Positions 47,830 through 59,685 of a DNA stretch of 64,000 nt are shown piece after piece; position 1 is the stretch's first letter, and every line of letters begins with the position of its first letter. The notes beneath the pieces were generated by a model. That model was given only the letters and a program-made list of their open reading frames with translations, did not search any database and had not been told where the DNA came from. The DNA comes from Halomonas sp. HL-48 (lineage in GTDB: Bacteria > Pseudomonadota > Gammaproteobacteria > Pseudomonadales > Halomonadaceae): positions 1 to 64,000 of the forward strand of contig NZ_LJZS01000007.1 of the NCBI RefSeq assembly GCF_001314875.1, written 5' to 3'. The position numbers were made by a program, and so were the translations under genes.

Positions 47830-49095
47830 ATGACCATTGCGATATTTGTCCTGCTTCTGCTGGGGGCCGTCCCCATTGCGCTGGTGCTCGCGCTGACGGC
47901 GATGGTCTACATTCAGGTCTCGGGCAATACGGTGCTGTTTGATTCCTACCCGCAGCAGCTGTTCAGCGCCATCGAAAGCTACGGCCTGCTGGCGATACCG
48001 CTGTTCATGCTGGCGGGTGAATTGATGAACGAGGGCGGCCTCACCAAGCGCTTGATTGCCCTTGCGCGCATTCTGGTGGGCGGCTTTCGTGGGGGGCTGG
48101 CCTACATCAACCTGGTCGCCAACATGATGATGGCGGCGATTATTGGCTCGGCGGCCTCGCAGATCGCCATCATGTCCCGCGCCATGGTGCCGGCCATGGA
48201 AGAAGAAGGCTACGACACCCCGTACAGCGCGGCGATTACCGCTGCGGGCGGCCTGTTGTCGCCAATCATCCCGCCCTCGATGCTGTTTGTGCTGTTCGGG
48301 GTGATGGCCCAGGTGCCGATTGCCGAAATGTTCATTGCCGGGCTTCTACCGGGACTGCTGCTGGGCGCGAGTTTTTTCATCGTGATTGCACTCGTGGGAC
48401 TGGTGCAGCAATACCCCAAAGGGCAGTGGCCCAGTCGCCGCCAGGCGCGGCACGATGCGCTATGGGGGCTGCCGGCACTGTTGATTCCGGTGATCATCAT
48501 CGGCGGCATTCTGTTGGGCATTGCCACGCCCACCGAGTCGGCGGCGCTGGCTTCTCTGGCGGCCTTACTCTTGGGCCGCTTTGTCTACGGCGATCTGCGT
48601 CTGGGGCAAATGCCCCAGATACTCAAGCGCACGGCGGTCAACGCCGGGCTGGTGATCATGCTGATCGCCGCGGCCGGGGTGTTTGGCTGGGTGGTGGTCT
48701 ACGAGCGCCTGCCGCAAATGGCGGCCGCGTGGATCGCCGCGCTCACCGCTGACCCCTTTGTCTTTCTGTTGATGGTGATTGGCGCGCTGCTGCTGGTGGG
48801 CATGGTGATCGACGGCATTGCCGCATTGATTCTGGTGGTGCCGATTCTGATGCCGATTGCGGAAAATCAGTTTGCCATCAGCCCCTATCAGTTTGGCGTG
48901 GTCGTCTGCCTGACCCTGGTGATGGGGCTGTTAACGCCCCCGGTGGGAGCGGGGTTGTTCATTGCCTCCTCGATGACCGGCGCGCCGCCGCTGAAAATCT
49001 TCCGCGCGCTGCTGCCGTTCCTGCTGGCCACGCTGGTGACGCTGGTGCTGCTTGCCTGGCTACCCTGGTTAACCAACGGGTTGATCAGCCGCTAG
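47830..49095 (+). CDS. TRAP transporter large permease DctM
   Basis: LAIPLFMLAGELMNEGGLTKRLI, GLLSPIIPPSMLFVLFG, ATPTESAALA; ATG at 47830. Confidence 0.95.
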   Translation: MTIAIFVLLLLGAVPIALVLALTAMVYIQVSGNTVLFDSYPQQLFSAIESYGLLAIPLFMLAGELMNEGGLTKRLIALARILVGGFRGGLAYINLVANMMMAAIIGSAASQIAIMSRAMVPAMEEEGYDTPYSAAITAAGGLLSPIIPPSMLFVLFGVMAQVPIAEMFIAGLLPGLLLGASFFIVIALVGLVQQYPKGQWPSRRQARHDALWGLPALLIPVIIIGGILLGIATPTESAALASLAALLLGRFVYGDLRLGQMPQILKRTAVNAGLVIMLIAAAGVFGWVVVYERLPQMAAAWIAALTADPFVFLLMVIGALLLVGMVIDGIAALILVVPILMPIAENQFAISPYQFGVVVCLTLVMGLLTPPVGAGLFIASSMTGAPPLKIFRALLPFLLATLVTLVLLAWLPWLTNGLISR

Positions 49096-49950
49096 CGGCA
49101 TGACATCCACCTCGACCTCAAGCTGGTGGTCGCCACCGCCGTTCATGACCCCCTTGAGCGGCGCCACATCGGCGTAATCACGCCCCCAGCCCAACACCGG
49201 ATGCTGCTCACCGGCGACGGTGCCGTTGGTCGGGTCCAGCGCCAGCCAGCCCCAGTCGGGGATCCAGGTAGCCAGCCAGGCATGGGAGGCATCCGCCCCC
49301 ACCAGACGTTGCTGACCGGGAGGCGGCTGGGTTTCCAGGTAGCCACTGACGTAACGCGCCGCCAGGCCAATCGAGCGCAGGGCGCCGATCGCGAGATGGG
49401 CGAAGTCCTGACACACGCCGCGCTGTTGGGCGAGCACATCGCTCAGCGGCGTGGCCAGGGTGGTGACGCTGGGGTCGTATTCGAAAGAGGCGTGGATCAG
49501 CTGGTTGAGGGCCAGCGCCGCCTCGACCACCGGGCGCCCCGGGGTAAAACAGCGCCGGGCGAACGCCGCCAGCGCCTCGTTACGGCGAATGAATGGCGAG
49601 TCCAGCCGGTATAGCTGGCGATCAAAATGGCTGTCGACGCTAAGCTGCTCGGCCACGCGTTCCCAGGCGGGAGAGTGGGCGGGCAACGGGCCCAGCGGCT
49701 GGGTGCTGATTGGCGTGACCACGGTGACGTCCAGGGCCTGGTGGAGGGTTTCCAGCGCGAAATACAGCACGCGATTGCCGAACACGTCGCGGCGTTCCGC
49801 CTGGGCGTCCGGTAGCGGATGAATGGTCAACGCCGAGGCGCCGCACTGCTGGTGCGGCGTCTTGCGCGGCAGTACCCGCGCTTCGCTATGGCATAGCGTC
49901 ACCGGCGCCGTATAGCGGTAGCGGGTGGTATGGCGCAGGGTGTAGTTCAT
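49069..49950 (-). CDS. transglutaminase family protein
   Basis: N-terminal LRHTTRYRYTAPVTLCHSEARVLPR; triad in RGVCQDFAH, DASHAWL, LDPTNG. Confidence 0.93.
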   Translation of the reverse strand: MNYTLRHTTRYRYTAPVTLCHSEARVLPRKTPHQQCGASALTIHPLPDAQAERRDVFGNRVLYFALETLHQALDVTVVTPISTQPLGPLPAHSPAWERVAEQLSVDSHFDRQLYRLDSPFIRRNEALAAFARRCFTPGRPVVEAALALNQLIHASFEYDPSVTTLATPLSDVLAQQRGVCQDFAHLAIGALRSIGLAARYVSGYLETQPPPGQQRLVGADASHAWLATWIPDWGWLALDPTNGTVAGEQHPVLGWGRDYADVAPLKGVMNGGGDHQLEVEVDVMPLAADQPVG

Positions 49951-52355
49951 GCGTCCGGCTCCATGCTGACCAGCTGGCGCGGCCGCTCGACATGGCTGAA
50001 GTGGCTATGACTGATGGCATCCGACAGCGCGCTCAGCGGCTCGATCAGGGCGTCGAGCAACTGCTCCAGTGCAAGTTGCGCCTCGGGGGTATCGGCCAGG
50101 TGGCTCAGGCGCTCGATATCGGCCAGGTGCAGCGCCGCATTGGCCTGAATCAGCAGCCGCCGCTCGGCGTTGCGGTAAGGCGATGAGCCGCCGGGTAAGC
50201 GGTCGATTTGCCGTTCGAGGCGCTTGAGCATGTAGCCCACCGAGCGCGGGTTGGTTTCATCGAACAGCAGCAGGTCGAGGATCGCGGCCGGGTGAAGTTC
50301 GCTGCGATAACGCCGCCGGTAGGCGGTAAAGTTATCGGTCGTGGCGAGGACCACCTCCCAAAGTGCCAGCCCCGGTGAGGGCGGCGCGTTCAGCGTCAGT
50401 TTGAGTAATGACAAAAGCCCCAGCACGCGATCCAGAAAACGCCCGATATCCATGAACCGCCAGCCGTAATGGTGGGGCATGGTTTCGTTGCACAGCCCAA
50501 AGAAGGCCGCCAGCTGCGCGGTAAGGTCTTCGCAGGCGCGCCGGGCAGCGCTGGCGTCATGACCTGGGTGCATCCCGCCGACCCGTTGGCGCAGCTGGTG
50601 GAGCACACGCCAGGAATCATCGCCCAGATGGTCGCGTATGCTGCGTGCGTTGCCCAGCAGCTGGGCGAACAGCGGCGCCAGCGCCTGGGGATGGCTATCG
50701 TCGAACTGGGCCAGCAGAGCGTCGCGTTTCTGGATAAACCCTACCAGCGGTGCCTTGCTGGGCTCGCCATCGGCGTCCCGGGTCGCAATGTCTAGTATCA
50801 GCAGCAGTTCATCGAGCAGCCGGTCGGCAATGTCATCCTGGTCGACTTCCAGTAGTCGCAACAGCGCTTCGCGCAGCAGGCGTGAACGCGCATCCAGGCG
50901 CTCGCCGTAGCGGCCCAGCCAGAACAGGCTTTCGGCTACGCGGCTGGGCAGGTCGGTGCCATCGCGGGTGGCGACCACCGGGCCTCGCGCCTGACGCAGC
51001 TGGCTGACGTGGGGCTGTGGCGTATCGGCGGTGATCCATACGTCTTTGACCACCGGGCTTGCCAGGGACGGCGAGCCGGGAGCGCCCACCCAGGCCAGCC
51101 CGCCAGGCATGACATGATAGTGGCTGGCATGATCGCTCGCGGCGCTGACGCTGCCTGGGGTGCGCGAGACAAAGCAGCGCAGGTTGAGCGGGGTCGGCGT
51201 CAGGCGCTGCATGTGGGTATCGAACACCGGAGCCGTGGCGGTCGGGGTGTACGAGTTAGCCCATTGCAGCAACAGGGGTTCGCCGAGCAGGTGCTCGCAC
51301 AGCGCCGGCAAGTAGTCGGCAAGCGCGGGGAGTTCCAGCACGCCGACGCCCAGCGCGTTGGAGATGGCCACGCCGCTGGACCGTGCCGCCTGCAGCAATC
51401 CCGGTACGCCCAGCTGTGAGTCGCCCCTCAACTCCAGCGGGTCGCAGTAGGCATCGTCACAGTGGCGCAGCACCACGTCCACCGCCTGCAGCCCGCCCAG
51501 CGTACGCAGCCACAGCTGGCTGTCGCGCACGACCATGTCCTGGCCTTCGGCGAGGTCGATGTTGAGATAGTTGGCCAGGTAGGCGTGCTCGAAATAACGC
51601 GGGCTGGCAGGCCCCGGCGTGAGCAGTACGACCTTGGGGTTGTCACGGTGTTGATAGGCCAGCACGGTAAGCGTGCGGTGATACTTGTCCAGGAAGCCCG
51701 CCAAGCGTTTTAACGGCGCGTTGCGGTACATCTCGGGCAGTGCCCGGGCCATCAGAATGCGGTTTTCCAGGGCAAAGCCGGTGCCCGAGGGCGCCTGGAG
51801 GCGGTCACCCATGACGCGCCACTGGCCCTTGGTATCCTGGATGACATCGACACCGTGGAAGTTGATCGCGGGTCGGTCGCTGGGCTTTGCGCCGTGACAG
51901 GGCAGTAGAAAATGCGGCGACGCCAGCATCGACTGGGTCGGCAACAGGCCCGCATCAAACAGCGTGCGGGCACCGTAGATATCCTGGTACAGGGCGTTGA
52001 ACAGCCGGCTTCGCTGGGTCACGCCGGCTTCCAGCGCCTGCCAGTGTGCCTGGTCGATCACCCAGGGCAGCGGGTCGAGTCGCCACGTGCGCCCCTGGGT
52101 ACCATCGTGCATATTGAAGATGACGCCGTTCTCGGCCAGCAGCCGCTGGATCTCGTCATGCTGTCGATGGCGGCCCTCCTTGCCCAACGCTTCCAGCGCG
52201 CCGATAAGGTTCGCCCAACCCGGGCGCAGGCGACCGTGGCGGTCGAGCAGCGCGTCAAAAGTGCCGGGCTGTCCCTTGCCTAGCTGATGCCGATAGTCCT
52301 CAACCAGCCCGGCAGTGCCGAGCTCGAGCGGTGAGGGGGAGACAGGGGCCGTCAT
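49947..52355 (-). CDS. fused circularly permuted ATP-grasp-like + alpha-E domain protein
   Basis: N-terminal ~460 aa ATP-grasp-like (TPGPASPRYFEHAYLANYLNIDLAEGQDMVV); C-terminal ~330 aa alpha-E (RVAESLFWLGRYGERLDARSRLLRE); start/stop overlap with 49950. Confidence 0.88.
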   Translation of the reverse strand: MTAPVSPSPLELGTAGLVEDYRHQLGKGQPGTFDALLDRHGRLRPGWANLIGALEALGKEGRHRQHDEIQRLLAENGVIFNMHDGTQGRTWRLDPLPWVIDQAHWQALEAGVTQRSRLFNALYQDIYGARTLFDAGLLPTQSMLASPHFLLPCHGAKPSDRPAINFHGVDVIQDTKGQWRVMGDRLQAPSGTGFALENRILMARALPEMYRNAPLKRLAGFLDKYHRTLTVLAYQHRDNPKVVLLTPGPASPRYFEHAYLANYLNIDLAEGQDMVVRDSQLWLRTLGGLQAVDVVLRHCDDAYCDPLELRGDSQLGVPGLLQAARSSGVAISNALGVGVLELPALADYLPALCEHLLGEPLLLQWANSYTPTATAPVFDTHMQRLTPTPLNLRCFVSRTPGSVSAASDHASHYHVMPGGLAWVGAPGSPSLASPVVKDVWITADTPQPHVSQLRQARGPVVATRDGTDLPSRVAESLFWLGRYGERLDARSRLLREALLRLLEVDQDDIADRLLDELLLILDIATRDADGEPSKAPLVGFIQKRDALLAQFDDSHPQALAPLFAQLLGNARSIRDHLGDDSWRVLHQLRQRVGGMHPGHDASAARRACEDLTAQLAAFFGLCNETMPHHYGWRFMDIGRFLDRVLGLLSLLKLTLNAPPSPGLALWEVVLATTDNFTAYRRRYRSELHPAAILDLLLFDETNPRSVGYMLKRLERQIDRLPGGSSPYRNAERRLLIQANAALHLADIERLSHLADTPEAQLALEQLLDALIEPLSALSDAISHSHFSHVERPRQLVSMEPDA

Positions 52356-52432: not shown

Positions 52433-55400
52433 TTAGCTTGGACACCAGCGTAAGTCCAGCGTGCAAGGCAGCTCCAGGCTGGGTATTTCCGACGGTGGTA
52501 CCTGGGTGCCATGGCGGTGTCCGCTTTCGCTGAAGCGTCCCAGGCGCCTTGCTTCTGCCTCGAAGGCGTTAACCGGGAAGGTATCAAAACTGCGCCCGGT
52601 GGGGTGCACTACATGATAGGTGCAGCCCGCCACGGAGCGCTGATTCCAGGTGTCGACCACGTCAAACACCAGTGGGGCGTGGACAGGAATCTGCGGGTGC
52701 AGCGCCGACGGCGGCTGCCAGGCCCGGTAGCGTACCCCGGCCACCGCCTCACCGTTACGCCCGGTGGAAGCGAGCGGTACGCGCCGCCCGTTACAGGTGA
52801 CCACGTAGCGGTCGCCGCTCATGCCGTTGACCTTGACCTCCAAACGCTCCACCGACGAGTCCACGTAGCGTGCGGTGCCTCCGGCAGAGGCTTCCTCGCC
52901 CAGCACGTGCCAGGGTTCGATGGCCTGACGCAGCTCGATATCCAGCATGGGGGTATGCAGCCGGCCATGCACCGGGAAGCGAAACTCGAGGAACGGCGCA
53001 AACCAGGCCAGATCGAAATCAAACCCATGATGACGCAGGTCGCCAAGGACGTCGTTCAGGTCTTCCCAGAGGTAATACGGCAGCATCCAGCGGTCCTGCA
53101 GGGCGCTACCCCAGCGCACCGGCTTGGCCCGGTAAGGGGTTTTCCAGCAGCGGGCGACCAATGCGCGAATCAGCAGCATCTGCATCAGGCCCATGCGGGC
53201 GTGGGGCGGCATTTCAAAGCCGCGTAGCTCCAGAAGCCCCAAACGGCCGCTGTCGCTGTCCGGCGAGTAGAGCTTGTCGATACAGAACTCGGCGCGGTGG
53301 GTATTGCCGGTCAGGTCGGTGAGCAGGTGGCGCAGCAGCCGATCGACCAGCCACGGCTGTACGACCTCGCCCTGGGGCATCTGCTGAAGGGCGATCTCCA
53401 GCTCGTAAAGTGCTTCGTGGCGCGCCTCATCTACCCGCGGTGCCTGGCTGGTGGGGCCGATGAACAGCCCTGAAAACAGATACGAAAGGCTGGGGTGGTG
53501 CTGCCAATAGGTGACCAGGCTGGCGAGCAGATCCGGGCGACGCAGAAACGGTGAATCCTCCGGCGTCACGCCGCCCAGGGTCACGTGGTTGCCGCCGCCG
53601 GTTCCCGTGTGGCGGCCATCGAGCATGAATTTCTCAGTACCCAGGCGCGCCTGTCGGGCCTCGTCGTAAAGCCGCTCGGTCTGCGCCACCAGGGTTTTCC
53701 AACTGGCCGCCGGCATGATGTTGACCTCGATCACGCCGGGGTCGGGGGTGATCATGAAGCTATCCAAGCGCGGGTCGCGGGGTGGGGCATAGCCTTCGAG
53801 CATCACCGGGCAGCCAAGATCGCGGGCGCACTCCTCAATGCTGCTGAGCAGATCCAGGTAGTGTTCAAGCTGGGTCAACGGCGGCAGGAAAATGTGTAAA
53901 CGTCCGTCCCGGGGCTCCACGCATAGGCTGGTGTGTATCACCTTGTGGTCGCGGTCGTTCTCGGCGCTGGGCTGCTGCTGAACGGCTTCGCCTTCGGGAT
54001 GACTCGAGCTTGGGTGCAGGCTTTGGCCGTGACGCTCGGCGCCGGTCAGGTGGGACTGCTCGGCGTGTCGCCTGGCCACTTCACCATGAATATCGCCAAT
54101 CTCGGGGCGGGGGGCAAACAGCGACTGTGGCTGCGGCTGGTCGTCCGGGTCAGCCCAAGGCAATGCCGACAGCGGCAGTCGCAGCCCCATGGGCGAGTCG
54201 CCGGGAACGAGATACAGCTGGTCGCGTTTTAGCGGCCAGTGACCGCTTTCCCAGCGGTGGGACTGAACAATCGAGTGGCGTAGCGGCAGGGCGTAGCCTA
54301 CTGCCGCGCCCAGGTCCTGTTCCAGCAGCCGGGCGAGACGGCGGCGCTCGGCGTCGTCTTTCAGATCAGCGTCGCGGGGGTCGACGCTTACCGGTAGGGT
54401 CTGCTCCTTCCACAGGTAGTAATAAACGTCCTCATAGGCTGGAATCCAGTGGCGTTCGGGCACGCCCAGCCGTTCGCTCAGCGCCAGGGTGAAGCGCTGG
54501 GCCATGGTATCGTCGGCTGTCACCTTGGGCGCGCCGTCCATGCAGGCGAGCCAATGCGGGTCGCGCCATAGCGGCACGCCATCCTTGCGCCAGTAGCAGG
54601 CAAGCGCCCAGCGCGGCAGCGGCTCACCGGGGTACCACTTGCCCTGTTGCTGCTGAATGACACTGCCCGGCGCAAAGGCGGCTTGCAGACGGGTCAGCAG
54701 CACCTCGGCGCGTTCGCGCTTGTGTTCACCCAGCGCTTCGGTGTTCCACTCGGGGCTCTCCATGTCGTCGAACGACACAAAGGTGGGCTCGCCGCCCATG
54801 GTCAGACGGACGTCCTGCTGGTTGAGCTCACTATCCACCTGATCGCCCAGCCGCAGGATCTGCTGCCACGCCTGATCGCTGTAGGGCTTGGTCACGCGCG
54901 GGTCTTCGTGGAGGCGCTCGACGCGCATTTCCACATCGAACTCGACCTCGCACTTATCCGAAAAGCCGGTGATCGCAGCGGCGCTGCCAGTGGTTGGCGT
55001 GGCCGCCAGGGGAATATGCCCTTCGCCGGCAAACAGGCCCGAGGTCGGGTCAAGCCCCACCCAGCCCGCACCGGGCAGGAAGACTTCGGTCCAGGCGTGG
55101 AGGTCGGTGAAATCCACATCGGTGCCGCTCGGGCCATCCAGCGCCTTGACGTCCGGGGTCAACTGGATCAGATAACCGGAGACAAAGCGCGCCGCCAGCC
55201 CCAGGTGGCGCAGTATCTGGACCATCAGCCAGGCACTGTCGCGGCAGGAGCCGCTACCCAGCGTCAGGGTTTCCTCGCAGCTCTGCACGCCCGGTTCCAT
55301 GCGCACCAGATAGCTGATGTCGTGCTGTAAACGCTGGTTGATGGCGACCAGGAAGTCGACGCTGGTGGTCGGCTCCAGGGACACATCCTTGAGCCACGCC

Positions 55401-55783
55401 ATCAGGCGCGGCCCGGCTTCGGTGACTTCCAGGTAAGGGCCGAGTTCCGCGCGCAGCGCGTCGGGGTAAGTAAACGGAATGGTCTGGGCGATGTCATCCA
55501 GGAAAAAATCAAACGGGTTGATCACCGTCATCGGGGCGATGAGTTCAACGGCAATGGTCAGCTCGCGCCGCGGCTCGGGGAAGACGATGCGCGCATTGAA
55601 ATTACCAAACGGGTCCTGCTGCCAGTTTACAAAATGATCGTCACCGGAAATGTTGAGCGAGTAGGCCTCGATGTGGGTGCGGCAGTGAGGGGCAGGGCGC
55701 AGACGGACCACATGCGGTGATAAGCGCACCGGTCGGTCAAAGCGGTAGGTCGTGTGATGGTGCAAGGCAACGCGAATGGTCAT
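52433..55783 (-). CDS. transglutaminase-like + DUF2126 protein
   Basis: LGSGSCRDSAWL, DLHAWTEV, LDPTSGLFAGEGHIPLAATP; DUF2126 region with MEGYAPPRDPRLDSFMITPDPGVIEVNIMP, GRHTGTGGGNHVTLGG. Confidence 0.93.
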   Translation of the reverse strand: MTIRVALHHHTTYRFDRPVRLSPHVVRLRPAPHCRTHIEAYSLNISGDDHFVNWQQDPFGNFNARIVFPEPRRELTIAVELIAPMTVINPFDFFLDDIAQTIPFTYPDALRAELGPYLEVTEAGPRLMAWLKDVSLEPTTSVDFLVAINQRLQHDISYLVRMEPGVQSCEETLTLGSGSCRDSAWLMVQILRHLGLAARFVSGYLIQLTPDVKALDGPSGTDVDFTDLHAWTEVFLPGAGWVGLDPTSGLFAGEGHIPLAATPTTGSAAAITGFSDKCEVEFDVEMRVERLHEDPRVTKPYSDQAWQQILRLGDQVDSELNQQDVRLTMGGEPTFVSFDDMESPEWNTEALGEHKRERAEVLLTRLQAAFAPGSVIQQQQGKWYPGEPLPRWALACYWRKDGVPLWRDPHWLACMDGAPKVTADDTMAQRFTLALSERLGVPERHWIPAYEDVYYYLWKEQTLPVSVDPRDADLKDDAERRRLARLLEQDLGAAVGYALPLRHSIVQSHRWESGHWPLKRDQLYLVPGDSPMGLRLPLSALPWADPDDQPQPQSLFAPRPEIGDIHGEVARRHAEQSHLTGAERHGQSLHPSSSHPEGEAVQQQPSAENDRDHKVIHTSLCVEPRDGRLHIFLPPLTQLEHYLDLLSSIEECARDLGCPVMLEGYAPPRDPRLDSFMITPDPGVIEVNIMPAASWKTLVAQTERLYDEARQARLGTEKFMLDGRHTGTGGGNHVTLGGVTPEDSPFLRRPDLLASLVTYWQHHPSLSYLFSGLFIGPTSQAPRVDEARHEALYELEIALQQMPQGEVVQPWLVDRLLRHLLTDLTGNTHRAEFCIDKLYSPDSDSGRLGLLELRGFEMPPHARMGLMQMLLIRALVARCWKTPYRAKPVRWGSALQDRWMLPYYLWEDLNDVLGDLRHHGFDFDLAWFAPFLEFRFPVHGRLHTPMLDIELRQAIEPWHVLGEEASAGGTARYVDSSVERLEVKVNGMSGDRYVVTCNGRRVPLASTGRNGEAVAGVRYRAWQPPSALHPQIPVHAPLVFDVVDTWNQRSVAGCTYHVVHPTGRSFDTFPVNAFEAEARRLGRFSESGHRHGTQVPPSEIPSLELPCTLDLRWCPS

Positions 55784-56035: not shown

Positions 56036-56051
56036 TGGTACGTATATTGCT
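56036..56051 (+). promoter_or_regulatory. putative sigma-54 (-24/-12) promoter for the 56138 ATP-grasp arm
   Basis: TGGTACG-TATA-TTGCT; GG-N10-GC spacing; one mismatch to TGGCACG-N4-TTGCW; 87 nt upstream of ATG. Confidence 0.65.
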
Positions 56052-56137: not shown

Positions 56138-57622
56138 ATGAGCCAAGTGAATTGGAATAACTATGCGTGTAGCGATTATTACGATGAACTGATGGCGGCA
56201 CCCGGCAGCCCCCGCGCGTCGGCAGGTGAGCTTTGCAATATGCTGGCGCGGTTCACGGCCGATGAGCTGGCCGAGCGTAAAACCGCTGCAGAAATCGCCA
56301 TTCGCACTATGGGCATCACTTTCACGGTGTATTCAGAAGGCGCCATGATCGATCGCGCCTGGCCGTTTGATATTGTGCCGCGCATTATTCCCGCCCATGA
56401 GTGGCGCAAAACCGAGGCGGGATTAAAGCAGCGCGTTCAGGCGCTCAACTTGTTTATCGACGATCTTTACCACGAGCAGAAAGTGGTCAAGGACAAGGTG
56501 TTGCCCGCCGAAGTACTGGCGCAGTCGGTTAACTTCCGCCCCCAGTGCGTGGGTATCAACCCGCCCCACGGCGTCTGGGCGCATATTTGCGGCTCCGATC
56601 TGGTCCGCGGCGGTGACGGGACCCTTTACGTGCTGGAAGACAACCTGCGCATCCCCTCCGGCGTCTCCTACATGCTCGAAAACCGCAACGTGACCAAACG
56701 TGTGCTGCCGGAGCTGTTTGCCTCTGGCAAGATCTTGCCCGTGGATGACTACGTGGCGCAGCTTTACGACATGCTGGCGGCCATGTCGCCACGCCCGGGC
56801 GACGAGCCACAGGTCGTGGTGCTGACCCCGGGGATCTACAACTCGGCGTATTTCGAGCACGCTTATCTGGCGCAGCAGATGGGTGTCGAACTGGTACAGG
56901 GCAGCGACCTGCTGGTGGATGACGATGACGTGGTCTACATGCGCACCGTGGAAGGGCTGCGGCGGGTGGACGTGATTTACCGACGCGTGGACGACGAATT
57001 TCTCGATCCCGAGGCCTTCAATCCAAACTCCATGCTGGGGGTGGCGGGCCTGATGCGTGCCTGGCGGTCGGGTAAGGTGGCCCTGGCCAATGCCCCGGGG
57101 GCCGGGGTCGCCGACGACAAGGTGGTTTACGCCTTCGTGCCCGAGTTGATTCGTTATTACCTGGATGAACAACCGCTGCTGCCCAACGTGCCCAGCTATT
57201 TGTGCATGTTCGAAGACGACCGCAAGTATGTGCTCGAACACCTGGACGAGCTGGTCGTGAAACCAGCCAACGAATCCGGTGGCTACGGCATGCTGATCGG
57301 CCCGCGCTCAACCAAAGAGACCCGTGACCAGTTCGTCGAGTTGATCAACGCCAATCCGCGTAACTACATGGCCCAGCCAACGCTTGCGCTGTCGACCACG
57401 CCGACGCTGGCCAATGGCCTGCCTCAGCCGCGCCATGTCGACCTGCGACCGTTTATTCTGTCCGGCCCTGAGACGCATGTAACGACCGGGGGCTTGACCC
57501 GTGTGGCGCTGGTGGAAGGCTCGCTGGTGGTCAATTCGTCCCAGGGAGGCGGCAGCAAGGACACCTGGATTGTCGAAACCGAGGATCACCCCGCGGCCGC
57601 CGCCGAGCGGACAGGAGCCTAG
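56138..57622 (+). CDS. circularly permuted type 2 ATP-grasp protein
   Basis: LDELVVKPANESGGYGMLIGP, NPRNYMAQPTLALST, SSQGGGSKDTWIVE. Confidence 0.95.
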   Translation: MSQVNWNNYACSDYYDELMAAPGSPRASAGELCNMLARFTADELAERKTAAEIAIRTMGITFTVYSEGAMIDRAWPFDIVPRIIPAHEWRKTEAGLKQRVQALNLFIDDLYHEQKVVKDKVLPAEVLAQSVNFRPQCVGINPPHGVWAHICGSDLVRGGDGTLYVLEDNLRIPSGVSYMLENRNVTKRVLPELFASGKILPVDDYVAQLYDMLAAMSPRPGDEPQVVVLTPGIYNSAYFEHAYLAQQMGVELVQGSDLLVDDDDVVYMRTVEGLRRVDVIYRRVDDEFLDPEAFNPNSMLGVAGLMRAWRSGKVALANAPGAGVADDKVVYAFVPELIRYYLDEQPLLPNVPSYLCMFEDDRKYVLEHLDELVVKPANESGGYGMLIGPRSTKETRDQFVELINANPRNYMAQPTLALSTTPTLANGLPQPRHVDLRPFILSGPETHVTTGGLTRVALVEGSLVVNSSQGGGSKDTWIVETEDHPAAAAERTGA

Positions 57623-57625
57623 CCC

Positions 57626-58630
57626 ATGCTGTCACGCGTCGCAGAAAACCTTTACTGGATGGCCCGTTATATCGAACGCGCCGAGGACACCGCGCGGTTA
57701 TTGAGCGTCAACAGTCACCTGATGCTGGATTTGCCTCGGCATCTGCCGCTTGGCTGGGGGCCGCTGATTGAAATGACCGGCACGCTCGAGGCATTCACGG
57801 AACGCCATGGTGACTTTGATGAGCGCAGCGTGGTGCACTTCTTGTGCGCCGATACCCAAAGCGGCAGCTCGATTCTTTCCGCCCTGGCCAGCGCCCGTGA
57901 AAACCTGCGCACCACCCGCGATGTGGTGCCCCGCGAGATATGGGAAGAGGTCAATCAGCTCTACCTGAGCGTTGCCGATCACGCCGAGAACGGCGTCAGC
58001 CCGCGACGTCGCGATGCTTTTTTGAAAAGCGTCATTCGTGGCTGCCAGACCCTGACCGGGCTGATCGAAGGTACGTTGAGCCACGGCCCGGCACGTACCT
58101 TCATTGAGCTTGGGCGCCAGCTGGAGCGGGTCGACATGACCACACGGATCGTCGACGTGCGCTCGGCGAGTCTGCTGCCGCAAAATCCCGAAGAACTGTT
58201 GCCGTTCGAAAACCTGCAGTGGATGAGCGTGCTGAAGTCGCTGACCGCCTACCAGATGTATCGCCAGCAGGTGCGCCTGCGCGTTCGCGGCCCGGATGTG
58301 CTGCGCTTTCTGCTTCAGGATCCCAATCTGCCGCGCTCTATCGCCTGCAGCCTGGAAACCTTGGGCCACGAGCTGCAGTTATTGCCCAGGCAGGACCGCG
58401 TGGCCGCCACCGTCTCGCTGGTGAGGGCGGATGTGGTGGATGCCGACATCCAGGCGCTGGCCCACTCGCCAAGCAAGCTGCACGCCTTTGTCGACGAGCT
58501 GCAGATTGGTTTTGCAGCGATTCACGACACCCTGAGCGCCACCTATTTTGTCAGTGCCGACAGCATTCCCCATGTGACCCAGCGGCAAACCCAGAGTCAT
58601 GCTGGCGATCAGGATATCGACGACGACTGA
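57626..58630 (+). CDS. alpha-E domain-containing protein
   Basis: MLSRVAENLYWMARYIERAEDTARLLSVNSHLMLD. Confidence 0.95.
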   Translation: MLSRVAENLYWMARYIERAEDTARLLSVNSHLMLDLPRHLPLGWGPLIEMTGTLEAFTERHGDFDERSVVHFLCADTQSGSSILSALASARENLRTTRDVVPREIWEEVNQLYLSVADHAENGVSPRRRDAFLKSVIRGCQTLTGLIEGTLSHGPARTFIELGRQLERVDMTTRIVDVRSASLLPQNPEELLPFENLQWMSVLKSLTAYQMYRQQVRLRVRGPDVLRFLLQDPNLPRSIACSLETLGHELQLLPRQDRVAATVSLVRADVVDADIQALAHSPSKLHAFVDELQIGFAAIHDTLSATYFVSADSIPHVTQRQTQSHAGDQDIDDD

Positions 58631-59685
58631 TCGTCATTGATCCTCGGGGCGTTGCGGATGAGTTCATGCACATACGCGAGCTTGTCGCGTACCGCCTGGG
58701 CTATCACGCCGGGCGCCAGGTCCAGCAGCCCCATGTCGCGGTTGAGCTCATTGACCGCCATGCCCGCCTGATGGAAAGCCTGCAGCATGCCGTCCAGCGA
58801 GCCGTCATACTCGGCTCGTGACAGCCCCATGTGCATGGCGGTATCCAGCACCGCCACCATATCCAGATAGAACGCAAAGGTTTCCGCAAAGTCTTCCCAC
58901 GGGTGCATGGCGGCATACGCCGAAATGAAGCGTGTCGGCCAGTCGGCGGGTGCCCCTTGTTGGTAATAGTGTTCCAGCGCATCCGCGTAGCTGGGGTGGT
59001 GATGATCGCCAAACACCCGGCGGCAGGTTGCTTCGTCGCGCGCCTTGACCAGTAGATCCCAGTAGTAGTGGCCGATTTCATGGCGAAAGTGACCGATCAA
59101 GGTGCGATGGGATTCGTTCATGTCGACCCGCAGGCGCTCACGTTCGACATCGTCGGCTTCTTTGACGTTGATGGTGATGTGGCCGTTGGCGTGACCGGTA
59201 TAGACTTTTTCCTGACTGGCGGTTGAGCGCCACAGCCCCTGGTCGGGCAGCGCATCGGCCATGAAGGAGAAGCTGAGCGGCACCTGGATGGCATCACCGT
59301 TGGTGCCATGGGGCAGACCCAGCACATCGAGGGTGTGAAACAGCCGACGCTTGGCGGCTTCGAGCGCTGCCCAGCGTTCACGGTTGCCCTCAATCGTCAT
59401 ATCCGGAATCACCGCGTTATATCGACAGCAGTCGCACAATTTGTCGCCATGCCCGTCGTCCATGACCACCATCCGATTGCAGACATTGTCGAAGGCGTAG
59501 TTATGGCACTTCATCAGGGGAGTGGCGCAGTCTGAATGAGTGCAGCGATAGCCGCCTTCGGGCAGCGCTTCCAGCGCGACGATGTTGGCACACGCCGGGC
59601 ACCAGCCCACCTCTGACCGGCAGGCAAGGCAGTGGGTGTTTTCAAAGAACAGCGGGTTGCCACAGCGGCAGCTGAACGTCTGCAT
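58609..59685 (-). CDS. zinc-ribbon plus putative zinc-binding metallopeptidase
   Basis: N-terminal paired Cys motifs (CRCGNPLFFENTHCLACRSEVGWCPAC); HFRHEIGHYYWDLLV (HExxH); HPWEDFAETFAFYLDMV. Confidence 0.9.
   Translation of the reverse strand: MQTFSCRCGNPLFFENTHCLACRSEVGWCPACANIVALEALPEGGYRCTHSDCATPLMKCHNYAFDNVCNRMVVMDDGHGDKLCDCCRYNAVIPDMTIEGNRERWAALEAAKRRLFHTLDVLGLPHGTNGDAIQVPLSFSFMADALPDQGLWRSTASQEKVYTGHANGHITINVKEADDVERERLRVDMNESHRTLIGHFRHEIGHYYWDLLVKARDEATCRRVFGDHHHPSYADALEHYYQQGAPADWPTRFISAYAAMHPWEDFAETFAFYLDMVAVLDTAMHMGLSRAEYDGSLDGMLQAFHQAGMAVNELNRDMGLLDLAPGVIAQAVRDKLAYVHELIRNAPRINDDQSSSIS

Follow-up and report, generated by a model that had tools for sequence, protein, structure and literature searches.

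Introduction

The stand-alone type of circularly permuted (CP) type 2 ATP-grasp protein (PF14403) is represented by a structure from Methylobacillus flagellatus (PDB 3n6x). A second point of reference is the Anbu operon of Yersinia bercovieri, which encodes an ATP-grasp protein, an alpha-E protein and a transglutaminase. The Yersinia stand-alone ATP-grasp relative releases phosphate from ATP by itself, and when Anbu served as bait in pull-downs, no specific interactions between proteins of its operon were picked up (PMC6376114). Related clusters are under NtrC/sigma-54 control in Burkholderia cenocepacia (PMC5491218) and are listed among the nitrogen-limitation responsive genes of Pseudomonas putida (PMC8050072). 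A related fold is also found in Escherichia coli glutathionylspermidine synthetase (GspS; PDB 2io7-2io9), in which the stretches RMD..YEYN and VKPIAGR (D318, E330-Y-N332) resemble motifs of the stand-alone protein described below; a sequence comparison of the stand-alone profile with E. coli GspS gives no significant alignment.

Results

The window, i.e. the whole stretch of 64,000 nucleotides that was analysed (Halomonas sp. HL-48, contig NZ_LJZS01000007.1, positions 1 to 64,000), contains a locus that encodes a CP-ATP-grasp type 2 domain twice, once fused to an alpha-E domain and once as a separate protein. The genes of the locus and one candidate regulatory site are as follows:

49069..49950, minus strand: transglutaminase with a Cys-His-Asp triad, its ATG overlapping the stop codon of the fused gene (ATGA)
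49947..52355, minus strand: fused protein of 802 aa, a degenerate CP-ATP-grasp type 2 domain plus alpha-E (PF14403 partial, 274/374; PF04168 complete)
52433..55783, minus strand: transglutaminase domain plus DUF2126, a putative amidoligase (Pfam)
56036..56051, plus strand: sigma-54-like -24/-12 site TGGTACGTATATTGCT ahead of the stand-alone operon (motif scan)
56138..57622, plus strand: stand-alone CP-ATP-grasp type 2 protein with all signatures, namely EDNLR, VVKPANESGGYG and GGGSKDTW (Pfam, alignment)
57626..58630, plus strand: stand-alone alpha-E protein (Pfam)
58609..59685, minus strand: Peptidase_Mx zinc metallopeptidase with a zinc ribbon, which adjoins the locus in most Halomonadaceae relatives

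The Cys-His-Asp residues are kept in both transglutaminases of the locus. A transglutaminase lies directly downstream of the fused gene and in the same direction in 19 of 20 sampled fused-bearing genomes, and follows it in all Halomonadaceae-type loci examined; in most of the latter, the stand-alone ATP-grasp and alpha-E genes face opposite to the transglutaminase-DUF2126, fused and transglutaminase genes. No Anbu proteasome-like subunit is found among the immediate neighbours of the locus. In Vreelandella andesensis (L038) and V. zhaodongensis (L056), the DUF2126 amidoligase domain is gone and its transglutaminase part remains; both keep the fused and second transglutaminase genes despite this loss. 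Two further loci, L058 and L072, have frame breaks in several genes (across most of them in L072) that look like sequencing errors and not gene decay. On the IncFII plasmid NZ_CP116251.1 of Enterobacter roggenkampii (L163), all five genes run in one direction, and because this plasmid carries the whole five-gene set with IS26 nearby, the system is probably able to move between species.

The fused gene is an uninterrupted open reading frame of 802 codons that contains LLGEPLLLQWANSYTPTATAPVFDTHMQRLTPTPLNLRCFVSR and LASPVVKDVW. Its product matches PF14403 (CP_ATPgrasp_2) at residues 97-370 with 345 bits (curated cut-off 32), covering profile positions 1-274 of 374, whereas the stand-alone protein covers all 374. 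The alpha-E profile PF04168 is matched at full length (positions 1-294 of 294, 220.5 bits), and NCBIfam gives no match for the ATP-grasp or alpha-E proteins of the locus. The following features are placed within the fused gene:

49998..50951, minus strand: alpha-E domain (Pfam)
51036..51053, minus strand: VVKDVW, residues 435-440, remnant of GGGSKDTW (alignment)
51250..51268, minus strand: lid-deletion junction LLLQWANS, approximately residues 363-368, common to 41 sequences (alignment)
51795..51809, minus strand: GDRLQ, residues 183-187, the degenerate counterpart of the metal motif EDNLR in the stand-alone protein (alignment)

In the alignment of the two proteins, 25 residues separate LLPN from the RHVDLR block in the fused protein, as against 84 in the stand-alone protein, where this stretch holds the lid, KPA..GGYG and AQPTLALST. 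The difference is a 59-residue deletion, and VVKPANESGGYG sits in the absent part. A preliminary description of this DNA had reported a missing segment of approximately 60-70 aa with the KPA..GG(Y)G and AQ..ALS motifs; the length and the loss of the first motif agree with the alignment, but AQPTLALST is degraded (to ANSYTPTAT) and not wholly absent. That LASPVVKDVW stands in place of GGGSKDTW is borne out by the reading frame and the alignment, and the frame and alpha-E domain are intact as described. The preliminary description had also asked whether the gap might be an assembly collapse, a reading that now has negligible probability and is excluded, as is chance, because relatives from two collections include 41 distinct fused sequences with the identical deletion, and these come from many Halomonas, Vreelandella and Halovibrio assemblies that are independent of one another.

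A second motif loss had gone unnoticed. The pattern E-x-N-x-R is the usual metal motif of the ATP-grasp superfamily, and EDNLR of the stand-alone protein corresponds to GDRLQ in the fused protein (GSDLVRGGDGTLYVLEDNLRIPSG versus GVDVIQDTKGQWRVMGDRLQAPSG), with D kept and E replaced by G, N by R and R by Q. The assignment of this motif is based on the general E-x-N-x-R pattern, on fold similarity and on the visible E-Y-N and VKP resemblance to GspS, of which we take D318, E330 and N332 to be ligands. The last of the three replacements (R171 in stand-alone numbering) is a class-specific conserved change, found as Q in nearly all fused proteins. Five residues of the family, D154, R437, K474, D475 and W477 (stand-alone numbering), are still present in the fused protein, which might conceivably retain weak nucleotide binding or some other chemistry through them.

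The distribution of these losses was surveyed in a set of 113 fused and 76 stand-alone proteins, in which the fused proteins were sampled through alpha-E matches in long reading frames, i.e. without selection on the ATP site, and further relatives were added. The E, N and R of the metal motif occur in 0, 0 and 3 of the 113 fused proteins, respectively, and each in all 76 stand-alone proteins. GGxG is likewise found in none of the fused and all of the stand-alone proteins, the lid lysine in 14/113 versus 76/76 and GGG in 1/113 versus 75/76. The fused class spans two phyla, and members from Sinorhizobium, the Enterobacter plasmid and Tsukamurella (Actinomycetota) obey the same motif loss. Salinicola, Kushneria, Marinospirillum and other relatives (approximately 50% identity) keep the length of the lid in the alignment without keeping its motifs. 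Two highly divergent fused proteins on long branches, L102 (G322) and L030 (G050), are likewise missing E and N from the metal motif. A search among long alpha-E frames for a fused homologue that is still active led to the candidates G141 and G257, whose loci have separate stand-alone ATP-grasp and alpha-E genes.

The preliminary description had pictured one protein that lost catalysis while its full-length fused homologues kept it, and this picture falls, with all 113 fused proteins lacking the signature. The alignment that it had proposed with such homologues confirms the motif loss, but shows the homologues of normal length to be equally devoid of motifs. A recent, lineage-specific loss of catalysis is rejected on the same observation. 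The pseudoenzyme state is, from the residues compared, probably a property of the whole fused class, with the deletion a secondary, late trim of a degenerate lid. Since the catalytic motifs are absent even from fused relatives whose lid has its full length, the loss of catalysis most likely preceded the trimming of the lid, which among the sequences sampled is confined to the Halomonas/Vreelandella lineage. Inactivity of the whole fused type is not described in the literature searched, which did not include Iyer et al. 2009, reportedly the founding survey, in which the inactivity of the fused type is perhaps mentioned.

In a phylogenetic tree calculated without the metal, GGGSKD and lid columns, a single branch with full support divides the fused from the stand-alone proteins, whether the Actinomycetota and Deinococcota rows are included or omitted; the tree is unrooted and comes from a quick search, and thus shows that the two types are separate but not which way the change went. 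Purifying selection acts on the fused gene. Pairwise Nei-Gojobori omega values at 29 loci, which are rough because dS is high (approximately 1.4), are 0.064 for the whole fused gene and 0.019 for the stand-alone gene; within the fused gene they are 0.057 for the ATP-grasp remnant, 0.047 for alpha-E and 0.135 for the region around the deletion. Because the AlphaFold2 model of the full-length fused protein is mediocre (pLDDT 67.6, pTM 0.52), a domain model of residues 1-466 built from a 36-row alignment (pLDDT 84.4, pTM 0.87) is used instead. In a Foldseek search with this model of the remnant, the best PDB match is 3n6x (TM 0.72) and glutathione synthetases are also found, so that the remnant is predicted to fold and to keep a glutathione-synthetase-like core.

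These results bear on two other readings of the fused gene. The large deletion and the disappearance of all catalytic motifs could mark a relic that is decaying and will eventually be lost, which is highly improbable for a gene with an omega of about 0.06 across its whole length, a frame open in nearly all relatives and a conserved pairing with a transglutaminase; purifying selection and the confident predicted fold lead to the rejection of this pseudogene reading. The fused protein could also still be an enzyme of another chemistry, e.g. an ATP-independent acyl or amide transfer by the five retained residues, with which the class-specific Q at position 171 and the strong purifying selection would agree. 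This is unlikely, as the Halomonas fused protein has neither a lid nor two of the three metal ligands expected, and the retained residues may do no more than keep the fold.

Counted by hand in the class sample with the own genome left out, a stand-alone alpha-E gene is present in 10 of 10 fused-bearing genomes from different families and in 32 of 140 others (Fisher p=1.3e-6). Every fused-bearing genome of a second sample also has one. Across genomes of the same genus as the window, fused and stand-alone genes are jointly present or jointly absent, as expected because one locus is gained or lost as a unit, and their joint presence thus partly reflects single-locus linkage. The claim of the preliminary description that a non-ligase paralogue is paired with an active split copy emerges from these data as the most likely one, given the additional loss of the metal motif, the selection and the constant presence of a stand-alone alpha-E gene. 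The converse association fails, since many genomes carry only the stand-alone pair. This matters for the reading in which the fused protein is an allosteric pseudoenzyme that assembles with the stand-alone ligase into a hetero-oligomer and either contributes part of the ligase's active site or activates the ligase. Such a role would fit a fused type that in the genomes sampled always occurs together with a stand-alone alpha-E gene and is set apart from the active type by one well-supported branch. It is rather improbable, however, because many genomes have a stand-alone ligase and no fused partner (32/42 alpha-E genomes, not counting the own genome), and in Yersinia the stand-alone enzyme needs no partner to free phosphate from ATP (PMC6376114).

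The sigma-54-like site TGGTACGTATATTGCT ends 86 bases before the start codon of the stand-alone ATP-grasp gene. Most Vreelandella loci have a -24/-12 site in a similar place, against a strict background of 0.006 per 480 nt. Of 42 loci searched ahead of the DUF2126/fused operon, only 2 have one. The site suggests nitrogen control of the stand-alone ATP-grasp operon.

Discussion

Judged by its residues, the fused protein very probably performs no ATP chemistry. If it forms no acyl phosphate, it would therefore act as a non-catalytic subunit. The reading preferred here, which on balance appears probable, is that of an ancient pseudo-ATP-grasp subunit that either supplies substrate to the coupled transglutaminase or regulates the stand-alone ligase. 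In the first case, the stand-alone ATP-grasp/alpha-E ligase would make a peptide-like substrate, and the fused protein, by its alpha-E domain and what is left of its pocket, would bind this substrate and present it to the translationally coupled transglutaminase; in the second, the fused protein would act on the stand-alone ligase itself. Whether the transglutaminase is the partner of the fused protein is an evenly balanced call. The Anbu-baited pull-downs in Y. bercovieri (PMC6376114), with no specific interaction within the operon, count against physical contact of the fused protein with the ligase or the transglutaminase. On the preferred reading, the locus would comprise a pair of related ATP-grasp/alpha-E/transglutaminase modules, of which the first is active and the second has an ATP-grasp that has turned into a binding or scaffold part, with the fused module dependent on the product of the active module. 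We more tentatively consider a widespread relay, in Pseudomonadota and Actinomycetota at least, in which a pseudo-ATP-grasp/alpha-E subunit is needed to pass the ligase product to a co-translated transglutaminase.

The database name 'circularly permuted type 2 ATP-grasp protein' implies a ligase, which the fused class, according to the residue survey, probably is not. Such inactivity would call for a different model of a poorly understood system that may be under nitrogen control. A natural deletion experiment is offered by the Halomonas/Vreelandella lineage, in that the role of the fused protein cannot require the ATP lid, and a single locus provides a clean active/inactive pair for probing the role of alpha-E.

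Comparison with known systems

The fused protein shares the fold of the stand-alone CP-ATP-grasp type 2 protein 3n6x (phmmer E 6e-55, residues 33-366) but lacks the 59-residue lid, has lost ExNxR, the lid lysine, GGxG and GGGSKDTW and has gained a C-terminal alpha-E domain. The fold of E. coli GspS is also related (Foldseek E approximately 1e-6 from the remnant model), although the E-x-N pair and the lysine stretch of that enzyme are both absent from the fused protein. The ATP-grasp, alpha-E and transglutaminase trio is common to the Halomonas locus and the Anbu operon of Y. bercovieri (PMC6376114), whereas the Halomonas locus has no Anbu among its neighbours and has an extra fused pseudo-copy and a DUF2126 protein. 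The full-length fused proteins of Salinicola, Kushneria, Marinospirillum, Sinorhizobium, the Enterobacter plasmid and Tsukamurella have the same architecture, neighbouring transglutaminase and metal-motif loss as the protein described here; they differ in that they retain a lid, close to normal in length and degenerate in its motifs, which in the Halomonas fused protein is deleted.
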